Shown here one piece after another: positions 3,443 through 15,823 of a stretch of DNA of 44,723 nucleotides. How positions within the stretch are numbered: the first letter of the stretch is position 1; every line of letters begins with the position of its first letter. The DNA lies in the IMG/VR virus record IMGVR_UViG_3300042945_002630, positions 1 to 44,723 of that record; one strand, 5' to 3'. Made by a program: the position numbers and the translations under genes. The notes below the pieces were generated by a model. The model did not search any database. It was not told the DNA's origin and saw only the letters and a program-made list of their open reading frames with translations. This stretch comes from a virus.

Positions 3443-4128
3443 GAGAATATTCTACCCCATCCTGATTTTGGACCATCAGCAGTCCATCTACGAGCAAGTT
3501 CACTTCTCTTATAAACTGCACCTTTTCCATTATAGACTGACCCAGTATAACCATCATTCAATGATCCATATGGGTCATTGACAACATAATCTTCACCTTT
3601 CTTTCCAATCACTACAACCATGTGCCCACCAGTAGGTGAAGATAAAGAACCCCTGTGAAGAATACCAATAATGACAGGTCTGCCAGCGGCAAGCTCCCTA
3701 TCAAGATCAGCAAAAGAAAGATTGTAACTAAATCGTGAATTAACACCATAAGACGATAAAACTTTTGTCTGTACGGCGTGATCAGTCGTATCACCGATTG
3801 CAAAAACTTTTCTAATGTAGGCGTCATCTCCTTTAGGTCCTACTAGAGTGCCAGGTTTGAAATACTCTAAACACATAGCACATGCAGATGAATTACAGGT
3901 TCTCTGAGCATCTCTGTAATTATCTGTTTGTGGAAAATAAGGAACGTTAAGAACTCCAGGAACTGTTTGTTCTGCTTTTGTTCTATAAATTTTCACCCAG
4001 TTTGCCGAGTCATCCATCAACTCTGGGAATTTAGCTGCCAAATCAACCTCAAGTTGCTCTACAGCAGCAACGTGCTTTGGATTCTTTTCATCATAGTGTT
4101 TGAAAAAGTTATGAAGATCTATTCTCAT
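3439..4128 (-). CDS. C39-like papain-fold cysteine peptidase
   Basis: 229 residues. The C-terminal two thirds resemble the Peptidase_C39_2 family: nucleophile C78 in QRTCNSSACAM, H169 in GGHMVVVIG and D185 in VVNDPYG, in the right order for a Cys-His-Asp triad. The N-terminal 55 residues look helical. It sits directly upstream of the endolysin with a 4-base overlap, so a role as a wall amidase or endopeptidase at lysis or entry is likely. Another possibility is a virion-borne wall hydrolase. No signal peptide is seen. Confidence 0.75.
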   Translation of the reverse strand: MRIDLHNFFKHYDEKNPKHVAAVEQLEVDLAAKFPELMDDSANWVKIYRTKAEQTVPGVLNVPYFPQTDNYRDAQRTCNSSACAMCLEYFKPGTLVGPKGDDAYIRKVFAIGDTTDHAVQTKVLSSYGVNSRFSYNLSFADLDRELAAGRPVIIGILHRGSLSSPTGGHMVVVIGKKGEDYVVNDPYGSLNDGYTGSVYNGKGAVYKRSELARRWTADGPKSGWGRIFS

Positions 4129-4147
4129 TATTCTTTTGCAAATTTAC

Positions 4148-4309
4148 TTATCTATAATACTCTTCAATTTTATCTAATACTTTATTCAGATACCTGTGAG
4201 CAACTTCTTTAGGATTGCCACCCCAACTAAATTCATCTCTATCCAATTGATTTTTTATTTTAAGAACTTCCATTCTTATAATATCCTTAGTAAGTTGTCC
4301 TCTTGGCAT
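4148..4309 (-). CDS. Small hypothetical protein (53 aa)
   Basis: Begins MPRGQLTKDIIRMEVLKIKN and ends with a charged helix (VLDKIEEYYR). I recall similar small proteins in other marine T4-like cyanophages, but no function is known to me. Basic and acidic residues alternate, with one Trp-Gly-Gly turn near residue 30, suggesting a small DNA- or protein-binding helical hairpin; that is inference. A terminator for the upstream redox genes lies immediately before it, so it starts a separate transcript leading to the cell-wall genes. Confidence 0.7.
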   Translation of the reverse strand: MPRGQLTKDIIRMEVLKIKNQLDRDEFSWGGNPKEVAHRYLNKVLDKIEEYYR

Positions 4310-4346
4310 AATAAAAAAACTCTGCTGTCTATTTAGCAGCAGAGTT
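4310..4346 (-). terminator. Rho-independent terminator
   Basis: A 10-bp stem (4318-4327 with 4337-4346, 9-base loop) is followed on the minus strand by a T-run at 4317-4310. It closes the photosynthesis/redox gene group. Confidence 0.85.
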
Positions 4347-4352
4347 ATATTC

Positions 4353-4442
4353 TCACAAGTCTTCAGTTGTTTTATTAATTGCGTAGGAAATAAGAACTAA
4401 GGAACCAATCCCAGTAAGAGTAAAAAGTATTTCGTGGAACAT
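4353..4442 (-). CDS. Single-span membrane microprotein (29 aa)
   Basis: MFHEILFTLTGIGSLVLISY followed by a short polar tail. It is one membrane helix, the size of the tiny photosystem or cytochrome b6f subunits, but it does not match PetL, PetN, PetG, PsbI, PsbM or PsbN as I know them. It is the last gene of the redox group, just before the terminator. The context suggests a thylakoid or plasma-membrane partner. Confidence 0.55.
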   Translation of the reverse strand: MFHEILFTLTGIGSLVLISYAINKTTEDL

Positions 4443-4468
4443 TGTTCTATAAAAAACTACATTAATAG

Positions 4469-4996
4469 TTATGCAGGAACTGCTTCACGAACTGTAGACT
4501 TCACATACTCAAGAAGATTTTCTGGGGTGCTCTTCTCGTATGGATCAGTATCTGCATTATCACGCATACCATCTTCAACGAATAGTTTTTCGATAACTCC
4601 ATTATCAATAACAGCAGCATAACGCCAAGAACGTTGACCGAAACCAAGATTAGATTTGGTTACGAGATATCCCATAGAACGGGTGAAATATGCATTACCA
4701 TCAGGGATAAGTTTTACATTCTTGATGTTCTGGTCCTGTGCCCAAGCATTCATTACAAACCCATCATTAACAGAGATGCAGTAAATAGCGTCGATGCCGA
4801 GACCAATAAAGTCGTCATATTTCTCTTCGAATCCAGGTAGCTGATAGGCACTGCAAGTAGGAGTGAAAGCACCAGGCAAGCTAAAAATGACAACACGCTT
4901 CCCATCGAAAAGTTCTGAAGATGTGCGATTTACAAATTCTCCGTTCTCACGGAATACAAATTCTACTTGAGGGATAATATATTTCTCTTTACGCAT
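4469..4996 (-). CDS. Peroxiredoxin (Prx5/AhpE-like)
   Basis: A thiol peroxidase removing hydrogen peroxide or organic peroxides. The PGAFTPTC motif holds the peroxidatic Cys (C48 from this start), with the P-x3-T-x2-C spacing of the family and an Arg in QRSWRY as the expected active-site partner. The start chosen (MRKEKY) has a strong AGGGAGG ribosome site; a frame-open ATG at 5041 would add 15 residues but has none. It sits with ferredoxin and hli genes, so it probably protects the photosynthetic apparatus from reactive oxygen during infection. Confidence 0.9.
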   Translation of the reverse strand: MRKEKYIIPQVEFVFRENGEFVNRTSSELFDGKRVVIFSLPGAFTPTCSAYQLPGFEEKYDDFIGLGIDAIYCISVNDGFVMNAWAQDQNIKNVKLIPDGNAYFTRSMGYLVTKSNLGFGQRSWRYAAVIDNGVIEKLFVEDGMRDNADTDPYEKSTPENLLEYVKSTVREAVPA

Positions 4997-6194: not shown

Positions 6195-7661
6195 TCAGAA
6201 CTTGAATGTTGTCTGAATTACACCACCCCAGTTGGAGGAGTTGTTGACTAGACGTTGGTTATCACTTGCATAGAAGATTGCAGGAGTGATGCTGATGTTA
6301 TCAGACACTTGATACTTGTAGAAGAACTCAAGCATAGTTGCTTTCTCCAGATCTTCACCAGTAGGTGCCTGACCGATAGCAAAACCAGCAGTATTACCAT
6401 CAACAAACACATCTTCCCACTGAAGACCTGCCATCCAGGACTGACTGTTGGTAGCAGCACTTTCAGTACCACTTACAGTATTCCAACCATAACCAGCAGA
6501 GATAGAGGGAACCCAACCAGATTGAGTAGGTTGCCAATATGCGTTCACAGCATAACCATTAGAGGTTTGTCCAGGAACCAGAGCACCCGATGCACCGTTC
6601 AGACCATTGAAGGTACGAACACGAGTGCCTTCGGTGCCATAACGATAACCGAATGCGATACCATAGTTGTCACCACGATAACCGATTTGTGCCAGAGTGT
6701 TGAGAGCACCAGAACGGTCAAACTCACCAGTTGCACTATCATTGCCATTTTGAGCAACATAGTTTACACCAGCAACGAGACCTTTGTTGCCATACTGAAC
6801 ACCGAAACCTGAACCAACTGCCTTGTTATAGACACCAGGAGTACCACCGACTTGGAAGAAGTCAAGGATCTTGGAACTATAAGCAGAAGGAACCCAAGAG
6901 ATTTCAGTATTACGAACCAGAGCACCAGCAGTAAATGTGGTGGTGTTATTAAATGCAGGGAACTGATAGTACAGACGGTCAATAACTACGTTATTACCAT
7001 TCTCACCAGTGGTATTGTCTGCCTTATCCAGTTTGAACAGAGAAGAACTGGAACCGAAAGGATCAGTACTGAAGTTAGAAGAACGAAGACGAGTGCGAAG
7101 CAGATCGTTGCCAGTGAATGAAGTATCCAGGTTCAGACGCAGATCATAGTTGAATGCAGTACGAGTTGCATCACCACCTTTGGTTTGGTAGTCATCTACA
7201 CCACCAAGAACAAAGTTTGCTTCACCACGCAGTTTAGTGGTGGTGGAGAACTGTTGTGCTTCAAGTGTAGTAACTTGTGCTTCCAGACCATCTACACGAC
7301 CCTTGAGAACTGCAAGTTCTGCACCGAATTCATTCAGAAGCTTCTTAAGTTCATCGGTAACTTCAGTTACACGATCCAGGCAAGCATTTAGAAGTGCTGC
7401 TGCTTCATAACGAGTCATTGCACGACCGCCACGGAATGTGCCGTTAGGATAACCAGCAACGCAACCATAACGATCTACCAGTTGCGACAGTGCTTGATAT
7501 GCCCAATCGGTTGGTTGCACATCAGAAAATTGAGTAACACTTGTGACCTGTTCTTGGGATGCATATTGGTTTACTCCGTTCATGTTAATTTCTGCGGCAA
7601 TTGCAGAAGGAGCAACCATTCCCAGAGCAACAGGTGCAAGCATCAGTTGTTTGAGTTTCAT
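6195..7661 (-). CDS. Cyanobacterial outer-membrane porin with SLH domain
   Basis: A 488-residue protein in the layout of the Som/OprB-type porins of marine Synechococcus. It has a signal peptide (about 1-23, MKLKQLMLAPVALGMVAPSA), an SLH domain (about 45-95; FSDVQPTDWAYQAL and YPNGTFRGGRAMTRYEAAAL), a short coiled coil (about 98-135) and a long beta-barrel region ending in the terminal aromatic TTFKF. In the host, the SLH part anchors to peptidoglycan and the barrel forms a pore. The gene has its own late promoter and terminator. Start choice: this ATG gives a clean signal peptide; ATG 7688 is possible; the ATG at 7718 lies too close to the promoter. Confidence 0.9.
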   Translation of the reverse strand: MKLKQLMLAPVALGMVAPSAIAAEINMNGVNQYASQEQVTSVTQFSDVQPTDWAYQALSQLVDRYGCVAGYPNGTFRGGRAMTRYEAAALLNACLDRVTEVTDELKKLLNEFGAELAVLKGRVDGLEAQVTTLEAQQFSTTTKLRGEANFVLGGVDDYQTKGGDATRTAFNYDLRLNLDTSFTGNDLLRTRLRSSNFSTDPFGSSSSLFKLDKADNTTGENGNNVVIDRLYYQFPAFNNTTTFTAGALVRNTEISWVPSAYSSKILDFFQVGGTPGVYNKAVGSGFGVQYGNKGLVAGVNYVAQNGNDSATGEFDRSGALNTLAQIGYRGDNYGIAFGYRYGTEGTRVRTFNGLNGASGALVPGQTSNGYAVNAYWQPTQSGWVPSISAGYGWNTVSGTESAATNSQSWMAGLQWEDVFVDGNTAGFAIGQAPTGEDLEKATMLEFFYKYQVSDNISITPAIFYASDNQRLVNNSSNWGGVIQTTFKF

Positions 7662-7731
7662 AAATTTGTTTTTAGTACTAAACGACATATTGATTAACCG
7701 TGCAAATAGTTGCGGCACAGTTGTATCACGG

Positions 7732-7762: not shown

Positions 7763-8554
7763 TCAAGATTTTTCAGGTGAGGTTATTCTTCCAAGATATG
7801 GATCATAATTCATTAGATCTTCAATTTTTATATTTGATCCATTTTGTTGCCAAAATTGAAGAAGTCCATCATGACTTGACCGATGGAAAATATCAATATG
7901 TTCTGGATGAATTGATGATCCAAGAGCAATTTTATAAAGAAAAATAGGAATAGAAAAAGTATTTCCAGAATTGTATATCAAATCATCTGCAACTGCACGA
8001 GGTTTAACACCATTATCAAGTTTATATTTTTCTCCTCTGATATGATGCTTAATTAATTTTTCTGCATGATGACGAGTAATCATATAGCAAGCAGTGGAGA
8101 AATCATTAACAAATCTTTTATGCAATTGGACATGAAGATTTCCTGTGCAAATAATTGCTAACTGAATTACATCATAATCATAAGGAACCTTAGAATAAAA
8201 ATCGATCCAAGTAAAATCCCAATTTTTCACAATCTGAAGGTCTACATCATCCTCCATAATTATTGCATATGGAGAATTAGAATTTTCATACCAAAATTTA
8301 ATTGCCTTTAAGTGAGATGTAGTGCATCCAATTTCACCTGAGGTCATCATATCGGGATAACGACCAGAGATAATATCACTCAAATCATCATCCCTGCCAT
8401 CATAAGCAGAAATGCGAGTATAGTTTTCAATCTCCCATTCTTTAAATTGGTCTTCCATATACTCTTTTCTATCTGGTTGACCATCAAGGTTCAAGTAATA
8501 TATGGGTCCAATATTTTTAAGTTTATATGCTGATTTGTTTTTTTCCATTATCAT
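7763..8554 (-). CDS. GT25-family glycosyltransferase
   Basis: 263 residues, matching the LPS-type glycosyltransferase family 25. YYLNLDGQPDRK (19-30) is the N-terminal signature, GEIGCTTSHLKA (73-84) the conserved middle block, and MEDDVDL (100-106) the metal/sugar-nucleotide DxD-like motif. The usual role is adding a hexose, often galactose, to lipooligosaccharide. It is the last gene of the ten-gene glycan cassette and overlaps the upstream oxygenase-like gene by 32 bases. Target unknown. Confidence 0.85.
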   Translation of the reverse strand: MIMEKNKSAYKLKNIGPIYYLNLDGQPDRKEYMEDQFKEWEIENYTRISAYDGRDDDLSDIISGRYPDMMTSGEIGCTTSHLKAIKFWYENSNSPYAIIMEDDVDLQIVKNWDFTWIDFYSKVPYDYDVIQLAIICTGNLHVQLHKRFVNDFSTACYMITRHHAEKLIKHHIRGEKYKLDNGVKPRAVADDLIYNSGNTFSIPIFLYKIALGSSIHPEHIDIFHRSSHDGLLQFWQQNGSNIKIEDLMNYDPYLGRITSPEKS

Positions 8555-9062
8555 ATGTATTAAAAAAGAACACTTGTGTCAACCTAGCGTTTTCGGGTGA
8601 ATTTCCAAATCCAGGAATAAAACTTCTATGAAAATTTTTATTTCCCTTAAAAAATACTATTCTATTGTATACATTACCAATTAAAGAATTCAAAGAATAA
8701 TCCTCATCAGTTTCGGGATCAATTTTGACTGGAGTATATATTGCAGTTCCAGATCCAACATTAGCATTTGGTGTTAAATACAAAACTGCAGACCATTCTG
8801 TTTCGTCTTTATGAACCCAACTTTCGGTATCTTCAAAGCAAAGTTGAAAACAAAAACTATCTTGATCATAAGGAAAGAAAATCTCCTTCCCCATTATCTC
8901 TTCAAATTTTTGTTTTATCATTTTTCGATAATCACAATCTGCTTTTAAACTACGTAATCCTGGAAAAATTCCCTGTTTTGGATAATTAATTGATATAGCA
9001 GATGATCTTACTAGATCTGGATTATCTAAAAAATTATCAACTACAATTACAACTGAATCCAT
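8523..9062 (-). CDS. Putative 2OG-Fe(II) oxygenase (DUF6445-like)
   Basis: 179 residues. The iron-binding pattern of 2-oxoglutarate dioxygenases is present in order: H84-x-D86 in WVHKDE, H145 in NFHRSF, and R160 in ARLTQVFFF as the likely 2OG-binding Arg. GTAIY between them fits the jelly-roll. It may hydroxylate a sugar, lipid or protein side chain. It lies inside the glycan cassette, overlapping both neighbours (32 bases and 16 bases), which favours a sugar-related substrate, though that is inference. Confidence 0.65.
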   Translation of the reverse strand: MDSVVIVVDNFLDNPDLVRSSAISINYPKQGIFPGLRSLKADCDYRKMIKQKFEEIMGKEIFFPYDQDSFCFQLCFEDTESWVHKDETEWSAVLYLTPNANVGSGTAIYTPVKIDPETDEDYSLNSLIGNVYNRIVFFKGNKNFHRSFIPGFGNSPENARLTQVFFFNTYDNGKKQISI

Positions 9063-9901
9063 GAATCAAGATATAGATCTTTAGTATCTTTATCGGCATA
9101 AGAAGGTCCAAACCACATCTTTGGTGCAACGACAGTTCCTTTACCATTTTGCAACCAAGCACCCCACCAAGACAATGAGGAATTTGCGATAATTGCACCA
9201 GAACATAAAGACATTAAACAAAGATCAACATAAGGAGTATATGATCCATCTGGATATTTTTCTTCTGGTTCAGAAATTAAAAACCTATCATCAGAAAAAA
9301 TTTCTTGTTCTTTAACCCATTCTGGTGAATCAGAAACAACAATTACAGTTTGATCATCATCAAATTTCTTCAATGCTTCCTCATAATACTCTAATGGTTG
9401 AGGAGGATGTTGCTCAGAGCATTGAGTATAAGACCATTTAAATCCACGAGCATCGACAAGATTTGGATCTCCCCTACGGACATGTAAGAAAATAGGTTTA
9501 TCCAAAGTGGAAATCATCTCTTTACATGGTTCTAAAATTTCATCATAAAATGTAAAATCTTCTCTTATACTATCTGTTATATGAGAAAAATATTTTTCTG
9601 TTTGAAAAAATCCATGTATGCTCACATCATTTGGACACAAATTATGCAAATCTTCATCGTAATGAAATTGCCTTTCTACAACTACTGGTGCAAATCCATT
9701 GTCCAAAAATCCTTTATTGCCACTAGAAACATTTGGCAATTTAAAACATTTATGTAAACTATAGTTATCAATTCTAGACGCAGTGAAAGGTGGTATGCAA
9801 AACTCATACCCCATCTTACTTGCGATTCCCCTCAATGCTGCATATTGAAACATTTGGTTTCCCAAACGACCATTATTGCCAAGTTCATTAAACGCTAACA
9901 T
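9047..9901 (-). CDS. GT11 alpha-1,2-fucosyltransferase-like protein, copy 1
   Basis: 284 residues with the family's three marks: GRLGNQMFQYAA near the N terminus (11-22), HVRRGD (140-145, motif I that binds the GDP-sugar), and NSSLSWWGAW near residue 245. GT11 enzymes move L-fucose from GDP-fucose in alpha-1,2 linkage. No GDP-fucose-making gene is in the window, but GDP-mannose 3,5-epimerase is, so the donor could be GDP-L-galactose (see findings). A paralogue lies one gene upstream. Confidence 0.88.
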   Translation of the reverse strand: MLAFNELGNNGRLGNQMFQYAALRGIASKMGYEFCIPPFTASRIDNYSLHKCFKLPNVSSGNKGFLDNGFAPVVVERQFHYDEDLHNLCPNDVSIHGFFQTEKYFSHITDSIREDFTFYDEILEPCKEMISTLDKPIFLHVRRGDPNLVDARGFKWSYTQCSEQHPPQPLEYYEEALKKFDDDQTVIVVSDSPEWVKEQEIFSDDRFLISEPEEKYPDGSYTPYVDLCLMSLCSGAIIANSSLSWWGAWLQNGKGTVVAPKMWFGPSYADKDTKDLYLDSWIQL

Positions 9902-10706
9902 TCAATTGCTTCCTCCTTTCTTTATAATATTCCTGTTGGTTATAATAGTTAACCAATGTATCAGTATTTTGCTTTCTTATCCATTGCCAAAGATTATGAT
10001 TATCGGAAAACTTTGGATTATGGTAATGGGAATTGAATGTTCTCCCATGCTCAAGATGATAAATTAAATCATTAACCCTACCCATTTTATATCCAAAACT
10101 AGCAAGTCTGTAATAAAATTCGCAGTCTTCTGCTCCCCAGGATATAAAGTTTTCATTCCACATCCCACAATCAATATAAGTAGATCTTTTAATCATTTGT
10201 CCCCAACCAATAGTAGAGGATGCTTTTTGGGAATTTTCAATAAGAATTTTTGGATCAAATTTTGAATTCAAAAATCCCTCATAGACCTCCATGGGATAAT
10301 TCACTGCCCGTTGATATGCTCCACACCCATAAGGATAAATTACATCACAATTCCCCTGAATAATTGCAGAATATGCATGGTGATATGTTGATACTGGGAG
10401 TATCATATCAACATCGTGATTGAAAACAATATCAGAAGATGATTCAATAAGAAGATCATTTAGTATTCTTGTTTTGTGAAAAAAATCATCTTCACTTTCT
10501 TCAAAAATGTGGTTTAAATTTTCAATACCAACATATTTTTTAATTTCAGGTATAGCTCTAAATTTAAAATTTGATCGTTTATCTACTTCCTTTACAATAA
10601 CTTTAGACTCAGGAAAGTGATAAAGAAGATAAGAAACAGAAGTAATTATATTTCTCAATCTATCTTCACTTTCAATTCTACACGGAATTAAAAAATCAAC
10701 TTTCAT
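9888..10706 (-). CDS. GT-A glycosyltransferase (GT2/GT7-like)
   Basis: 272 residues from the ATG chosen here (a TTG two codons earlier is possible). The N terminus MKVDFLIPCRIESEDRLR fits a GT-A Rossmann-like fold, and FNHDVDMIL (about 96-104) holds the DxD metal site. The C-terminal block has GWGQMIKRS and WGAEDCEFYYR, as in the galactosyltransferase (GT7) C-terminal domain that binds acceptor. It is sandwiched between the two GT11 copies and ends inside copy 1's start. Confidence 0.8.
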   Translation of the reverse strand: MKVDFLIPCRIESEDRLRNIITSVSYLLYHFPESKVIVKEVDKRSNFKFRAIPEIKKYVGIENLNHIFEESEDDFFHKTRILNDLLIESSSDIVFNHDVDMILPVSTYHHAYSAIIQGNCDVIYPYGCGAYQRAVNYPMEVYEGFLNSKFDPKILIENSQKASSTIGWGQMIKRSTYIDCGMWNENFISWGAEDCEFYYRLASFGYKMGRVNDLIYHLEHGRTFNSHYHNPKFSDNHNLWQWIRKQNTDTLVNYYNQQEYYKERRKQLNVSV

Positions 10707-10708
10707 CT

Positions 10709-11602
10709 TCAAACCTCTGGAGCAATCTCTGATGGATCATTATAGAGTTCAATCCAACCATCAGGAATTAAATCATCCATAATGTAATGATCATAGGCAG
10801 GTCCAAACCATGGTTTGGGAGCAATAACTTTTTTATTTGGATTATTAATTAGCCAAGCACCCCACCAAGAAAGAGAAGAATTTGCAATAATTGCATCAGA
10901 ACACAAAGTCATCAAACAAAGATCAACATAAGGAATAGAAGCACCATCACGGAACAACTCCTTTGAGTTGTCTGAGAAATGAAATTTATCTCCCTGGAAT
11001 AATGGTTGCTTTTTGCACCAATCAATTACATCAGAAAAAACAATAACTTTATAACTATCGTCAAACTGCTTCAATGCTTCTTCATAGTAATCCATTTTAC
11101 AAAGAGGATGGTATTGCTGAAGCATTTGATAAGACCAACGTTCACCCCTCACTCCAGTTAGATTGGGATTTCCTCTGCGAACATGTAGAAAAACCAATTT
11201 ATCTGTATTAAAGCTTTCAATAAATTCTTTACAGGGGTCTAACCATTCATCTTTAAATGTAAAATCTTGACGAATTTCATCAGAAATATGCTTGAAATAT
11301 TTTTCTGATTGAAAATACCCATCAATATCTACATTATCAGGGCATTCATTAAAAATTTTCTCATTGAAGTGGAATTCCCTCCAAGAAATCATTTGTTTAG
11401 GTTGTTCTCCCTGATTTTTTTCTTGACAGTTAGTTAGTTTAAAACCATCAAAAAGACCATAATTATCACATCTATCTGCACCTTCTGGTGGAATCATCCA
11501 ATCAAATCCACGATTTGCTGCAATGCCTCGAATAGCAGCATACTGGAACATTTGATTACCGAGTCGTCCTGCATTACCAAGACCATTAAATGAAATTGCC
11601 AT
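10709..11602 (-). CDS. GT11 fucosyltransferase-like protein, copy 2
   Basis: 297 residues, clearly paralogous to the copy at 9047-9901: both share GRLGNQMFQYAA, the FQSEKYF/FQTEKYF block, and SSLSWWGAW. In this copy motif I reads HVRRGN (140-145) where the other copy and the family have HVRRGD. The last Asp is normally conserved, so this copy may have altered donor or acceptor use, or lower activity. Same cassette, so both probably modify the same glycan at different positions. Confidence 0.87.
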   Translation of the reverse strand: MAISFNGLGNAGRLGNQMFQYAAIRGIAANRGFDWMIPPEGADRCDNYGLFDGFKLTNCQEKNQGEQPKQMISWREFHFNEKIFNECPDNVDIDGYFQSEKYFKHISDEIRQDFTFKDEWLDPCKEFIESFNTDKLVFLHVRRGNPNLTGVRGERWSYQMLQQYHPLCKMDYYEEALKQFDDSYKVIVFSDVIDWCKKQPLFQGDKFHFSDNSKELFRDGASIPYVDLCLMTLCSDAIIANSSLSWWGAWLINNPNKKVIAPKPWFGPAYDHYIMDDLIPDGWIELYNDPSEIAPEV

Positions 11603-11603
11603 T

Positions 11604-12260
11604 TTACTCCTTACTTGTTTTTACAAAAAGTGCGTCTCCCCAATCGGAGGTATGTTCGAAAGTTTCTACATGCTCGAACCCAAATCCTTTCAGATAATCT
11701 TTGAGTTCATCAAACATTACATTATCAACATAATCTGGATTATTCCAAGTTGCTTCAGTCGTCACATAATTAACATTTTCCAAAACTTTTGTTGCACCCT
11801 TTAATACGAGAAGTTCCGCACCTTGAGTGTCCATATCCAAAAGTTGAAAGTCAGAATAATTAAATTCATTAGACTCAATAAGAGTATCCAACTTTACAGT
11901 TTCAACTTTAATTGTTTCCTTATGCCACTCTTCAAATCTACCTTTTGGTCTAAGTAGAGAAGAGCATCCTTTATTACCAGTCATAAAACCAGCATCTGGT
12001 CCATAGCAAATGTGAAAATCAATCTCCTCACAATCACTATCACTTGCTGCTACACAGAATCCATGAGACTCTACACTTGTTTCTGCTCTGCTTAGTGCGA
12101 TTTCCAACTCCTTAAATACATCTGGATTGGGTTCAACCCAGATGATTTGCTTAGCACCAAGTTTTTCATAATCATAAATTTCTTCACCACGATGAGCACC
12201 AACATGGATTACCCCATCGACTTTAACATTATTTTCCGAAAAATATTTGTATTGACTCAT
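11604..12260 (-). CDS. FkbM-family methyltransferase
   Basis: 218 residues with the FkbM pattern: GVIHVGAHRGEE (15-26, SAM loop), WVEPNPDVF (41-49, acidic residue binding the SAM ribose) and LLDMDTQGAE (about 139-148, typical FkbM motif). These enzymes O-methylate sugars or polyketides. In a phage glycan cassette, the expected job is capping a sugar hydroxyl on LPS or on a virion glycan. It overlaps the upstream GT10 gene by 4 bases (ATGA). Confidence 0.85.
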   Translation of the reverse strand: MSQYKYFSENNVKVDGVIHVGAHRGEEIYDYEKLGAKQIIWVEPNPDVFKELEIALSRAETSVESHGFCVAASDSDCEEIDFHICYGPDAGFMTGNKGCSSLLRPKGRFEEWHKETIKVETVKLDTLIESNEFNYSDFQLLDMDTQGAELLVLKGATKVLENVNYVTTEATWNNPDYVDNVMFDELKDYLKGFGFEHVETFEHTSDWGDALFVKTSKE

Positions 12261-13057
12261 TTAAAATAATTGGTATAGATAAAATCTTCCGCAACAGGAA
12301 GGTTTAAAGAACGTTCAAAATTATCTTTAACTGCATCTATTTTAGAATGATAAAGGTCTTCTGTCAATGAGGAAATATCAAAATCATCATCTAAGAATAT
12401 GATTCCATCTTCATTGAAATACTCAGTAATTCCTTTACATCCGTAAAAAATTGGAATAGTTCCAGCAGCAAAACAATCTGTGATTTTCTCAGTGAAATAA
12501 GTATCATAGACTGCGTTTTCTACTGCAATAGAGAACATATAATCCTTTAGTGCTTCTTCTTTACAAGAAATATCTCGGATACCTCTACCAAACAAATCAA
12601 CTTGGTCCTTGAACTTATTCACAAACTCAAGTCTCTTTATGTGTCCAGGAACCATAGACTTATTTGATGATACCATAGAAACCAATTTGGTCTTCTCAAA
12701 TATCTGTCTGTCTACAACCCAAGGTGCAGCATTGCTGAGTGCGTAGTTAATCTTAGGATACTTCTCGCACAATTCTCTATCACAACTAAAAATACCATCA
12801 ACTCTGGTAGCAGCAAACTCATAATTTTTAATAATCCAATCATAGATTGGTTTAATGATTTGCTTGGATTCCAACAACCAAATATAAGTGGGTTTGATTT
12901 GAACCGTAGAAAATGCTTCCAGAGAACGTTGATTTACATAGAAATTAACTTCTCCAGAACCATCATAAACCCACTCAGTAAACTTAGAAGTGTTTTTATC
13001 TGAAGTAGAAGGAAGAAGAGAATCGTTGCAATAAAGATTAATCTTAAATTTGCTCAT
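12257..13057 (-). CDS. GT10 alpha-1,3/1,4-fucosyltransferase-like protein
   Basis: 266 residues. The C-terminal half has the GT10 signature: YMFSIAVENA (173-182), YFTEKITDCFAAGTIPIFYG (187-206), which forms the GDP-sugar pocket. Family members add L-fucose in alpha-1,3 or 1,4 linkage. With two GT11 genes this makes three GDP-L-fucose-type transferases in one cassette. The N-terminal acceptor half is divergent, as is normal. Its start lies inside the upstream SDR gene's end (14-base overlap). Confidence 0.85.
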   Translation of the reverse strand: MSKFKINLYCNDSLLPSTSDKNTSKFTEWVYDGSGEVNFYVNQRSLEAFSTVQIKPTYIWLLESKQIIKPIYDWIIKNYEFAATRVDGIFSCDRELCEKYPKINYALSNAAPWVVDRQIFEKTKLVSMVSSNKSMVPGHIKRLEFVNKFKDQVDLFGRGIRDISCKEEALKDYMFSIAVENAVYDTYFTEKITDCFAAGTIPIFYGCKGITEYFNEDGIIFLDDDFDISSLTEDLYHSKIDAVKDNFERSLNLPVAEDFIYTNYFK

Positions 13058-13892
13058 TCTTCATTGCCTCAAAGACTTTAGCAATTCCTTGCTCGATAGT
13101 TGTTTTGGGCATCCACCATTTAGTCAAATATGTATCTGGAAGATTTCTTTTATCCATTTGAACAGAATCTTTTTCTTCTGATGGTTGAATCTTCACTGAC
13201 TTATCAATCAAATTAAATTGACCAGAAATAATATTTGCAATATCAAGAATCTTTGTGGAATGGAAACTTGTGATGTGAAGATTATCTTCTGAAGTAAAGT
13301 CATTATAGTTTTCCATAATTGCCTCTAGTGCTTCGCAGCAATCTTCAGCATAAAGAAACTCACGTTGCTCCTGACCATCAGTAAGCATATCAATTACACC
13401 AGTCTCAAATCCTTTACGAATAAAGTCAGTAATAACGTGTGCTTTATCGTGGTCTTTTTCGATGCCATACACATTCCAGAACTTAACAATAAGTCCATTA
13501 AGAGACTTAGTATAAAGTTCTCCAACATTCTTCAGAACTCCATATGGAGAATAACTCATATTGCTCATCTGAGATGATGCAAAAACAAACCTCTTATTGT
13601 ACTTCTTAAGAAGTCCAAATGCATTTGCCATCAGACGTGCATTGTTATCAATGAACTGAAATGTGTGCTGATACTTTTTAAGGTATCTGGAACCACCCAC
13701 ATCAAATGCAAGGAAGAATACAAAGTCAGAATCTTTGATATTATCTTCCAAGTTTTGATTTGGAATAACTGTCATATCCTGTTCTGGTCCATTCACAACA
13801 TCAAATTCATTGACGGTATGACCTTTTCCACGAAGATATTCGGTCAGGTATGCTCCAACCTGACCACTTGAACCTAATACTGAGATTTTCAT
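13044..13892 (-). CDS. NAD(P)-dependent epimerase/dehydratase (extended SDR)
   Basis: 282 residues. The cofactor loop GSSGQVG (7-13), the catalytic SSQMS and YGVLK (YxxxK) patterns, and FWNVYG place it among nucleotide-sugar epimerases and dehydratases. Substrate is not clear. Being adjacent to GDP-mannose 3,5-epimerase, it could reduce or epimerise the same GDP-sugar, or act on a different one. It overlaps the upstream methyltransferase gene by 4 bases. Confidence 0.85.
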   Translation of the reverse strand: MKISVLGSSGQVGAYLTEYLRGKGHTVNEFDVVNGPEQDMTVIPNQNLEDNIKDSDFVFFLAFDVGGSRYLKKYQHTFQFIDNNARLMANAFGLLKKYNKRFVFASSQMSNMSYSPYGVLKNVGELYTKSLNGLIVKFWNVYGIEKDHDKAHVITDFIRKGFETGVIDMLTDGQEQREFLYAEDCCEALEAIMENYNDFTSEDNLHITSFHSTKILDIANIISGQFNLIDKSVKIQPSEEKDSVQMDKRNLPDTYLTKWWMPKTTIEQGIAKVFEAMKNEQI

Positions 13893-14581
13893 TCTAAGCT
13901 ATCTACTATCCAAAGAGTTTGTACGTGTGGGTAAGAATTCCCACTTTGATATAATTTAGTCATAGAGATTCCCCACTGGTCTAGAATCTCTTTATGTGCT
14001 CTGGATTCTCCATCTTTGAATTCTTCAAACCCAGGAGTTCCACCCCAATCATCATACCCAATTAGTGTTCCAGGAACAATCAAATTATTCTCCATCAAAT
14101 AATTAAATGCGTATTTTGTTGGGGAATAAATGTCCAAATCAAAATCAACGTAAAATGCTGGTTTTAAATCTTTTTGTTTTGGGAGAGTTTCCTCAACAAG
14201 TCCAGCAACAACAGATACTTTACTTTGATTATTTTTATTCGTAAAGATAGTTTGAACTTCTTTCTGAATATGATTTGCACAATCATCTGGAGTATCCAAA
14301 CTCATATGCTTAAGAACATTAAATTCATCTGGAAAAATATCTGGATTCCAAGAATCTTGGAAAATGGGTTCTGCAGTTTCTTTTGGCATTCCAGTAAAAA
14401 CATCAAACCCATGGAAAGTATTCACTTCTATTTTGTGTTTATTTAAAATAGAAGCAATTTCTTTCATCGACCCACCATTAAAAACACCAAATTGATAAAC
14501 ATCATAGTTTACCAATTCTTCTTTTTCAAAACTATTATGGTCGTTAACTGCGATATCTAATAAAGAAGTTCTCCAACTCAT
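13889..14581 (-). CDS. TylF/MycF-like sugar O-methyltransferase
   Basis: 230 residues resembling macrocin-type O-methyltransferases: YQFGVFNGGSMKE (29-41, SAM loop), FHGFDVFTGMP, YVDFDLDIYSPT and IGYDDWGG, which in the family carry the metal-binding Asp residues. It would methylate a hydroxyl on a deoxysugar or other hexose. It lies between the two epimerase genes with 4-base overlaps on both sides, so it is coupled to sugar synthesis. Second of two methyltransferases in the cassette. Confidence 0.8.
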   Translation of the reverse strand: MSWRTSLLDIAVNDHNSFEKEELVNYDVYQFGVFNGGSMKEIASILNKHKIEVNTFHGFDVFTGMPKETAEPIFQDSWNPDIFPDEFNVLKHMSLDTPDDCANHIQKEVQTIFTNKNNQSKVSVVAGLVEETLPKQKDLKPAFYVDFDLDIYSPTKYAFNYLMENNLIVPGTLIGYDDWGGTPGFEEFKDGESRAHKEILDQWGISMTKLYQSGNSYPHVQTLWIVDSLE

Positions 14582-15630
14582 GATGCTTTCTTGGCAATTT
14601 GCTCACTAATCCATTCATATGTTTTGCGGATACCTTCTTCAAGAGTCTGTGAATAATCCCAACCAAGTTTTTCACGAATTAGGTCATTATTGGAATTGCG
14701 ACCACGAACTCCAAGTGGTCCTGGAATATGATTCTTTTCGACTTCCTTATTTGAAACTTTAGCAGCAGTATCGACAAGTTGATTAATTGTCACCATTTCT
14801 TCAGAACCAATATTAACGGGTCCCATAAACTCAGAATCCATCATTCGACGGGTTGCTTCGATACATTCATCAATATAGAGGAAAGATCTTGTTTGCTTAC
14901 CATCCCCCCATACTTCAATAGTGCCGCCCTCAGTCGGAAGATATGCCACTTTTCTACAAATCGCAGCAGGAGCCTTTTCTCGTCCACCTTCCCAGGTCCC
15001 CTCTGGTCCAAAGATGTTATGATATCTAGCAACACGTACAGGAATGCCGTAATTCCTATTGTAAGCAAAATATAGACGCTCACTAAAAAGTTTTTCCCAA
15101 CCGTATTCAGAATCTGGATTGGCAGGATAAGCAGAAGACTCCCTACAATCAGGATTATCGGGATCAAGTTGGTTATGCTCAGGATACATGCAAGCAGAAC
15201 CAGAATAGAAAATTTTAGTAGTATTCGTACCGACTCTTTCATTTAATTTACGTTGTTCCTCAAGAACATTCAAATTGATTGATACTGAATTATGCATAAT
15301 ATCTGCATCATTCTCCCCAGTGAAAACAAATCCTGCTCCTCCCATATCAGCAGCAAACTGATAAATTTCATCAAATGCTTGAATATAACGATATGGAACA
15401 TGGTTATAAAAATTGCCAAGTTCTCCTTTATATTCTAGGACTCTACTAACAAAATCTACATCTCTAAGGTCTCCCTGAACAAATTCATTTGCTTCAGTGG
15501 GAGAAAATTCTGGTCTTTTAAGGTCTATACCACGAACCCAATATCCTTCGGAACGTAATCTTTTTACCATATGACTTCCAATAAAGCCACCAGCACCAAG
15601 AACAAGTGCTGTTTTAATGTATTGACTCAT
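14578..15630 (-). CDS. GDP-mannose 3,5-epimerase
   Basis: 350 residues, extended SDR. GAGGFIG (12-18) binds NAD; QFAADMGGAGF and the block HNIFGPEGTWEGGREKAPAA are diagnostic of GDP-mannose 3,5-epimerase. The catalytic residues known for the Arabidopsis enzyme (C145, Y174, K178, K217) are all found shifted by two: C147, Y176, K180, K219. The enzyme turns GDP-D-mannose into GDP-L-galactose (and GDP-L-gulose). It is the first gene of the glycan cassette, so its product is probably the donor or precursor used by the following transferases. A terminator and structured leader lie upstream. Confidence 0.92.
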   Translation of the reverse strand: MSQYIKTALVLGAGGFIGSHMVKRLRSEGYWVRGIDLKRPEFSPTEANEFVQGDLRDVDFVSRVLEYKGELGNFYNHVPYRYIQAFDEIYQFAADMGGAGFVFTGENDADIMHNSVSINLNVLEEQRKLNERVGTNTTKIFYSGSACMYPEHNQLDPDNPDCRESSAYPANPDSEYGWEKLFSERLYFAYNRNYGIPVRVARYHNIFGPEGTWEGGREKAPAAICRKVAYLPTEGGTIEVWGDGKQTRSFLYIDECIEATRRMMDSEFMGPVNIGSEEMVTINQLVDTAAKVSNKEVEKNHIPGPLGVRGRNSNNDLIREKLGWDYSQTLEEGIRKTYEWISEQIAKKAS

Positions 15631-15673: not shown

Positions 15674-15702
15674 AAAAAAGAGGGGTCTTGTAAACCCCTC
15701 TT
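15674..15702 (-). terminator. Rho-independent terminator upstream of the glycan cassette
   Basis: A 9-bp stem (15678-15686 with 15694-15702, 7-base loop) is followed on the minus strand by a short T-run. It lies only 44 bases before the cassette's first start codon, so it may be either the end of the upstream transcript or an attenuator. The stem also has A residues on its plus-strand left side. Confidence 0.8.
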
Positions 15703-15823
15703 CCATAAGATATTTTTAACTGGAATAATAACCAGGCGGGAGTTATCCCATCCGCACCACCAATTCTTTAGAGAAATTGGAAACTCAATCAGTTGTTCGA
15801 TTTCTCGGCTCCACCACCTAGTT
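15703..15823 (-). ncRNA. Candidate structured RNA / leader before the GDP-mannose epimerase gene
   Basis: No gene is seen. On the minus strand this stretch follows a small membrane-protein gene and ends in the terminator at 15674-15702. It can form several local hairpins: 15760-15765 with 15775-15780, and 15771-15777 with 15800-15806; these compete with each other. A further perfect 7-bp hairpin (15817-15823 with 15830-15836) overlaps the upstream stop codon. The wcaG RNA motif is known from marine cyanobacteria and phages ahead of WcaG-type epimerase genes, which is the family of the next gene. Membership is not shown. Confidence 0.35.

Follow-up and report, generated by a model that had tools for sequence, protein, structure and literature searches.

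Donor Modules of Described Systems

The cassette of freshwater Synechococcus phage S-SRM01 is led by gmd and fcl, the genes of the GDP-L-fucose route (GDP-mannose 4,6-dehydratase and GDP-L-fucose synthase), and the paper on this phage names a NodZ-type fucosyltransferase (PMC8557907). Synechococcus phage S-SCSM1 has an annotated GDP-mannose 3,5-epimerase (GME) with a GT11 gene in the same cluster; this GME has been in print since 2022, with GDP-L-galactose and lipopolysaccharide named (PMC9602691), and a later cyanophage paper repeats it as a cell-wall gene (PMC10665884). The subject here is a glycosylation cassette in IMG/VR virus record IMGVR_UViG_3300042945_002630, whose 44,723 bases (the window, the whole stretch of DNA analysed) read as a fragment of an ocean cyanomyovirus genome. 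The cassette combines a GME with one GT10 and two GT11 genes for fucosyltransferase-type enzymes, and the window holds neither gmd nor fcl. This observation is confirmed; the interpretation that the GME supplies an L-galactose donor is partly supported. Judged from sequence, use of phage-made GDP-L-galactose by the GT10 and GT11 enzymes is on balance probable, with ample room for doubt.

From GT10 onward, S-SRM01 has the same gene order as the window (GT10-FkbM-GT11-GT2-GT11-GT25), followed in both by ferredoxin and peroxiredoxin genes, with identities over the aligned parts of 81% (GT25), 60% (GT2), 57-58% (GT11) and 45% (GT10). Unlike the window, it begins with the GDP-L-fucose genes and its best match to the window GME is 30% identical, whereas the window has a porin gene between GT25 and ferredoxin. 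S-SCSM1 differs in carrying gmd and fcl directly before its GME, and it is absent from the 19 GT10 records. In phages S-SCSM2R, S-SSM7 and Sf-FS3, whose whole records lack gmd and fcl, GME is followed by a short-chain dehydrogenase/reductase (SDR) gene, GT10 and three GT11 genes; unlike the window, they contain genes for a NAD-synthetase-like protein and UDP-glucose dehydrogenase, and nothing in them matches the window FkbM. Outside phages, Arabidopsis GME is of the same enzyme family, and the fucosyltransferases of mur1 plants that use GDP-L-galactose carry out the chemistry proposed here. In plants, however, L-galactose transfer follows from the loss of fucose or was obtained in vitro, while the window may represent a dedicated viral arrangement. 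Within the literature covered, to which subscription papers mostly did not belong, no proposal of an L-galactosyltransferase role for cyanophage GT10 or GT11 enzymes was found. The preliminary description of the window had spoken of a new phage glycan pathway; this is weakened by the S-SCSM1 report, although the available passages of PMC9602691 do not link the S-SCSM1 GME to fucosyltransferase-type enzymes.

An Intact GME and No GDP-L-Fucose Module in the Window

The top PDB relatives of the window GME are Arabidopsis GME 2c59 (E 3e-88) and GME 8sg0 (2e-86), with the next at about 1e-22, and the protein is 87% identical to the GME of S-SCSM2R. The key residues of plant GME are S143, C145, Y174, K178, N203, K217, R243 and R306 (available text of PMC8787198). 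By PDB alignment, in which the plant chain numbering is inferred to run two above that of the paper, the window equivalents are S145, C147, Y176, K180, N205, K219, R248 and R311; all eight are kept, and all are invariant in the 8/8 cyanophage GMEs compared. The set expected of EC 5.1.3.18 is thereby complete: the SDR triad (S/Y/K), the Cys-Lys acid/base pair, the Arg that helps the Cys, the Asn and the diphosphate Arg. The Lys base and the helper Arg are what tell GME from GDP-fucose synthase (PMC8787198). By these features the window epimerase is a genuine, intact GME with predicted activity, and the preliminary description was right that it retains all its catalytic residues. For characterised GMEs, GDP-L-galactose is named as the main product, with GDP-L-gulose and GDP-D-altrose as side products (PMC8787198).

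Across the whole window, the gmd model matches only the GME (20.7 bits; cut-off 415), and the fcl model only the GME (87 bits) and a second SDR (31 bits; cut-off 500). Neither gene of a GDP-L-fucose cassette thus reaches its cut-off anywhere in the 44.7-kb fragment, which bears out the absence first described. Because the window is a fragment, a gene missing there may still sit elsewhere in the phage genome, and the absence was therefore also checked in relatives. The second SDR (13044-13892) was considered as a hidden fcl and rejected, since it lacks the S-x-C motif that is present in the window GME and in a phage fcl, and scores 31-37 bits against the cut-off of 500.

The GT10 and GT11 Enzymes

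All three fucosyltransferase-type genes first described pass their Pfam cut-offs of 23.9 bits, the GT11 proteins with 75.5 and 84.5 bits and the GT10 protein with 47.6 bits. The AlphaFold model of the GT11 encoded at 9047-9901 (pLDDT 93) has a GT-B fucosyltransferase fold: in the VIA comparison its 43 best rows are all fucosyltransferases (Z 11.5-14.0; next row Z 10.0), including POFUT1/2, FUT8, NodZ and Arabidopsis FUT1. Foldseek TM-scores for the same model are at most 0.54, and a PDB sequence search with the GT11 protein gave two chance-level matches only. For the GT10 model (pLDDT 91), FUT9 is the top fold match (Z 15.3); GT-B enzymes of other families follow closely (Z 13-14), so membership of GT10 rests on sequence. 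GDP-L-galactose and GDP-L-fucose differ only at C6, and plant alpha1,3-fucosyltransferase is a GT10 enzyme. L-galactose is transferred by mouse FUT8, by plant alpha1,3- and alpha1,2-fucosyltransferases and in mur1 plants (PMC8787198). Genome context marks the three window enzymes as candidate L-galactosyltransferases.

Organization of the Cassette

The cassette occupies 7763-15630 on the minus strand. Its ten genes lie on the same strand and neighbours either overlap or are separated by a 1-nt gap, so it looks like one operon. The span originally given, 9047-15630, has correct coordinates and falls short in extent, as the DUF6445 and GT25 genes extend the cassette to 7763. In order of transcription the features are:

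15697..15788, minus strand: wcaG RNA (RF01761), a candidate cis-regulatory element whose end lies 66 nt ahead of the GME start codon (Rfam 60.9 bits; gathering threshold 42)
14578..15630, minus strand: GME, first cassette gene (PDB GME E 3e-88; eight expected residues kept)
13889..14581, minus strand: TylF-type methyltransferase (Pfam PF05711, E 6.8e-8)
13044..13892, minus strand: second NAD-dependent SDR, nucleotide-sugar epimerase/dehydratase-like (Pfam PF01370, E 8e-23; no close PDB relative)
12257..13057, minus strand: GT10 fucosyltransferase-type enzyme, candidate L-galactosyltransferase (Pfam PF00852, E 2e-12; PDB GT10 sequence matches)
11604..12260, minus strand: FkbM methyltransferase (Pfam PF05050, E 2.8e-18)
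10709..11602, minus strand: GT11 fucosyltransferase-type enzyme, first copy, candidate L-galactosyltransferase (Pfam PF01531, E 5.6e-21; phrog_2644)
9888..10712, minus strand: GT2/GT7C-like glycosyltransferase (Pfam PF02709, E 4.3e-6; phrog_15655)
9047..9901, minus strand: GT11 fucosyltransferase-type enzyme, second copy, candidate L-galactosyltransferase (Pfam PF01531, E 1e-23)
8523..9062, minus strand: DUF6445 protein, overlapping both neighbours (Pfam PF20043, E 2.3e-8)
7763..8554, minus strand: GT25 glycosyltransferase, last cassette gene (Pfam PF01755, E 1.2e-14)

The flanking genes encode ribonucleotide reductase, transaldolase, 6-phosphogluconate dehydrogenase, ferredoxin and peroxiredoxin, and together with the nearest relatives they place the window among the Synechococcus myoviruses. 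The gene order recurs in two metagenomic loci (L006 and L008), where DUF6445 has no match, and dN/dS between the window and L006 is 0.02-0.19 across the nine cassette genes compared.

The wcaG RNA is a riboswitch candidate found in cyanophages near exopolysaccharide genes (PMC2864571; also PMC9964418). Besides the window, it lies upstream in 6/8 GME loci, four times within about 155 nt of GME and twice at 1.1 and 2.9 kb, and in 7/8 gmd loci at 0.5-4.1 kb; it therefore accompanies both kinds of cassette at varying distance. One guess is that its ligand is common to both routes, e.g., GDP-mannose. One locus (L009, 6427-6632) has two tandem copies of the RNA.

Directly after the cassette, an OprB-family porin with an SLH domain is encoded at 6195-7718 on the minus strand (Pfam E 6e-14 and 8e-9), and in S-SRM01 a gene annotated as porin lies upstream of the cassette. 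An outer-membrane porin that a phage encodes next to genes for surface sugars may be relevant to superinfection.

Distribution of the Two Donor Modules

With a threshold of at least 60% identity, GME is found in 38 phage records, and 37 of these are listed. All but one of the listed records, a 13.6-kb fragment, show a GT11 match (36/37), which in one case is only partial and lies at the end of a contig. All 14 complete GME-bearing cyanophages have GT11, and 13 of them have neither gmd nor fcl, S-SCSM1 being the exception. Fourteen IMG/VR records of greater length (38-90 kb) also contain GME; 10 of them have GT11 and none has gmd over the cut-off. Conversely, gmd over the cut-off and an fcl of 422-473 bits occur in seven phages (S-SRM01, DSL-LC03, ACG-2014f, S-CAM7, P-SSM2, S-SKS1 and DSL-LC02), none of which is among the 37 listed GME records. 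These counts come from duplicated and related records, with isolates chosen by their GME or gmd genes, for which reason hypergeometric and Fisher values for the association were set aside. Proteins resembling Gmd at about 164 bits, far under the cut-off, are encoded in GME phages Bellamy (172339-173298) and SynMITS9220M01 (157124-158113), the latter with heptose genes nearby; they may be a different GDP-sugar dehydratase.

The metagenomic comparison covers the best 80 of at least 600 GME-anchored candidates and the best 80 of 580 gmd-anchored candidates from IMG/VR, with flanks of up to 10 kb in each direction, many of them shorter; both samples consist of the closest relatives of two query proteins rather than a random draw. 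Custom profiles were applied at thresholds of at least 350 bits (GME, gmd and fcl) or at least 30 bits (GT10 and GT11). The GME loci contain no gmd (0/80), no fcl (0/80) and a GT10 or GT11 in 60/80, whereas the gmd loci contain no GME (0/80), fcl in 71/80 and a GT10 or GT11 in 46/80. Where at least 8 kb of downstream sequence is available, a GT10 or GT11 is present in 46/52 GME loci and 43/47 gmd loci. A transferase stands directly after GME (within 150 nt) in 24/94 loci, GT10 and GT11 accounting for 12 each, and a GT11 stands directly after fcl in 13/79. The mutual exclusion of GME and gmd-fcl in these loci, together with the cassette shared with S-SRM01, makes the two modules look interchangeable, each feeding homologous GT10 and GT11 enzymes.

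In the proposed scheme, the cyanomyovirus operon would build a glycan in which a one-enzyme GDP-L-galactose module takes the place of the usual gmd and fcl. The GT10 and the two GT11 enzymes would transfer L-galactose as their relatives do L-fucose, a step suggested by module exchange, adjacency and the promiscuity of fucosyltransferases. Further sugars would be attached by GT2 and GT25, and methyl groups by the TylF and FkbM enzymes. The product would most likely alter the host surface polysaccharide during infection; alternatively, it could be a virion glycan.

Cellular Genomes

Host capacity was assessed in 201 genomes of a family chosen via a Prochlorococcus genome. Here gmd exceeds its cut-off in 124/201 and an fcl-like gene reaches at least 350 bits in 114/201; the latter is a working threshold, since the NCBIfam cut-off of 500 is reached by no host genome and by no phage fcl (422-473 bits). 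GME at E 1e-60 is found in 1/201, namely the genome from which the family was chosen, and in 0/200 others. By these profile matches, many but not all members of the host family have the GDP-fucose route, and hardly any have the GDP-L-galactose route.

A second sample held 80 GME loci on cellular genome contigs, of which 78 were kept. The two set aside have GME cassettes of cyanophage type and probably represent misbinned phage; L098 is filed as a Euryarchaeota metagenome-assembled genome (MAG) and L102 as a Rhodobacteraceae MAG. Among the 78, four loci (L111, L115, L131 and L168) have a GT11 immediately next to GME and one (L110) has it farther away; in the four, the adjacent GT11 is the sole GT11 match of its genome, and gmd is nearby in two. 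The pairing of GME and GT11 thus exists outside viruses, rarely in this sample. Four Prochlorococcus genomes (L099-L101 and L103) have a phage-like GME, 76-80% identical; that of L099 lies on a 291-kb contig and is therefore perhaps chromosomal, and phage-host exchange is possible.

Which Donor Do the Transferases Use?

A number of results count against GDP-L-galactose as the dedicated donor. Neither GT10 nor GT11 is present in 20/80 GME loci, six of which have at least 8 kb downstream, and GT11 was not found in 4/14 of the longer IMG/VR GME records. In five of the six well-covered exceptions, a scan of 20 downstream proteins gave GT25, GT17 and a weak galactosyltransferase match, besides other sugar-related enzymes, unrelated enzymes and proteins with no Pfam match. 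Such loci show that the association of GME with these transferases has exceptions. There is no GT11 within 8 kb in 73/78 cellular GME loci, and 6/10 cellular GME genomes tested have none. S-SCSM1 has GME together with gmd over the cut-off and an fcl of 455 bits, phage B23 has a GT11 with no gmd, fcl or GME-like match, and gmd and an fcl-like gene occur together in 106/201 host-family genomes. GME can also release GDP-L-gulose (PMC8787198).

Several of these points lead to the main rival, which follows from the GDP-fucose route being common in the host family: the GT10 and GT11 enzymes would use GDP-L-fucose made by host gmd and fcl, and the GME would serve a different transferase, be it GT2, GT25 or an enzyme encoded outside the window, yielding a two-sugar glycan. 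The host-family counts are in its favour, as are the two routes of S-SCSM1, the lone GT11 of B23 and the six well-covered loci in which GME, at least there, may serve otherwise. Yet other phages bring gmd-fcl beside GT11 even though many hosts own it, and GME and gmd-fcl never occur together in the 160 anchored viral loci. GT2 and GT25, moreover, do not follow GME, since cassettes of either type contain them, while a GT10 or GT11 directly follows GME in about a quarter of loci (24/94). Host-made GDP-L-fucose is judged unlikely, if still a serious competitor. The preliminary description had named gmd and fcl in the host as what would overturn it; the pair is indeed there in 106/201 sampled genomes, which bears this objection out in part. 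Its proposal that GME replaces gmd-fcl as donor source likewise stands in part: GME does take the place of gmd-fcl beside GT10 and GT11 in relatives, but S-SCSM1 has gmd, fcl and GME together and some GME loci have neither transferase.

If the donor module determines the sugar, transferase lineages may follow it. The GT11 set comprised 99 sequences from GME loci, 54 from gmd loci and 6 others; sequences scoring under 70 bits or shorter than 220 aa were excluded from grouping, as were unlabelled loci, and seven divergent rows were left out of the column analysis. At 80% identity, none of the 98 GT11 groups has a mixed donor module, and the GT11 tree requires 6 label changes against a mean of 22 over 500 shuffles of the gmd label, 0/500 being as low. 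The GT10 tree (19 representatives) requires 3 changes, where shuffling gives about 6 on average and reaches so few in 3-4/500 runs. Of the control families (GT25, GT2, FkbM, the second SDR and talC), GT25 requires 3 changes on 20 representatives and mixes, with one mixed group and 4/7 gmd representatives nearest a GME one, compared with 2/25 for GT11. FkbM requires 1 change on 14 representatives and separates by donor as cleanly as GT11, and GT2, the second SDR and talC are too small, with at most three gmd representatives each. The control thus only partly favours GT11 lineages that follow the donor; their clustering may also reflect linkage or phage ancestry, a further point on the negative side.

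A second rival holds that the transferases are promiscuous and take whichever of GDP-L-fucose and GDP-L-galactose is present, the phage merely ensuring that one is. Plant and animal fucosyltransferases accept GDP-L-galactose (PMC8787198), and sister GT11 groups are found with either donor module. Nor did the column analysis of donor-labelled representatives tie any GT11 residue to donor choice, which also tells against dedicated L-galactosyltransferases. The best donor-linked column, position 236 of the 9047-9901 protein (His in 19/25 gmd-linked and 13/63 GME-linked representatives), was rejected as a donor-specific residue since it tracks the tree, with two supported independent pairs and no significance. 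That 0/98 GT11 groups occur with both modules suggests some coupling, and indiscriminate donor use is considered improbable. The last rival, that the relevant product is GDP-L-gulose or another epimer, or that the GME acts on a related GDP-sugar, so that the transferred sugar is not L-galactose, draws on the GME side products (GDP-L-gulose and GDP-D-altrose) and is very improbable, as characterised GMEs mainly give GDP-L-galactose, which differs from GDP-L-fucose at C6 only.

Implications for Cyanophage Glycans

A wider reading of the L-galactose scheme is that cyanophages possess two exchangeable donor modules in homologous cassettes that the wcaG RNA often precedes, with dedicated L-galactosyltransferase lineages in GT10 and GT11 and a sugar foreign to the host on the infected cell or the virion. 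This more ambitious combination is tentative and, taken as a whole, somewhat doubtful. As the host family is almost devoid of GME, the virus would add a sugar that its host cannot make. If L-galactose is indeed transferred, the name "fucosyltransferase" would have to give way to L-galactosyltransferase for the GT10 and GT11 genes of a group of marine virus genomes, and the virus would supply a nucleotide sugar rarely made by hosts, with possible effects on receptor masking and grazing. The enzymes would also be natural means of making L-galactosides, and the paired GME and gmd-fcl cassettes lend themselves to comparison on how the choice of donor at C6 is set. The naming of the neighbouring epimerase would be wrong or too vague in many entries: among the 37 listed GME records, 5 are unannotated, 10 read UDP-glucose 4-epimerase, 10 nucleotide-sugar epimerase (the two together 20 of the 32 annotated) and 11 other general epimerase or dehydratase names, and one (MK867354.2) reads GDP-mannose-3',5'-epimerase.

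Other Features

Elsewhere in the window, a PhotoRC-II RNA (RF01717, 79 bits) lies at 626-720 on the minus strand. Among the metagenomic loci, viral contig L068 encodes a RuBisCO large-chain-like protein (PF00016, E 4e-43) at 3701-4936 on the plus strand, about 2 kb downstream of GME. Three viral contigs have Rfam tRNA-Sec matches barely over threshold (L193, 1452-1537; L194, 583-668; L224, 1441-1526), which may be ordinary long-arm tRNAs.

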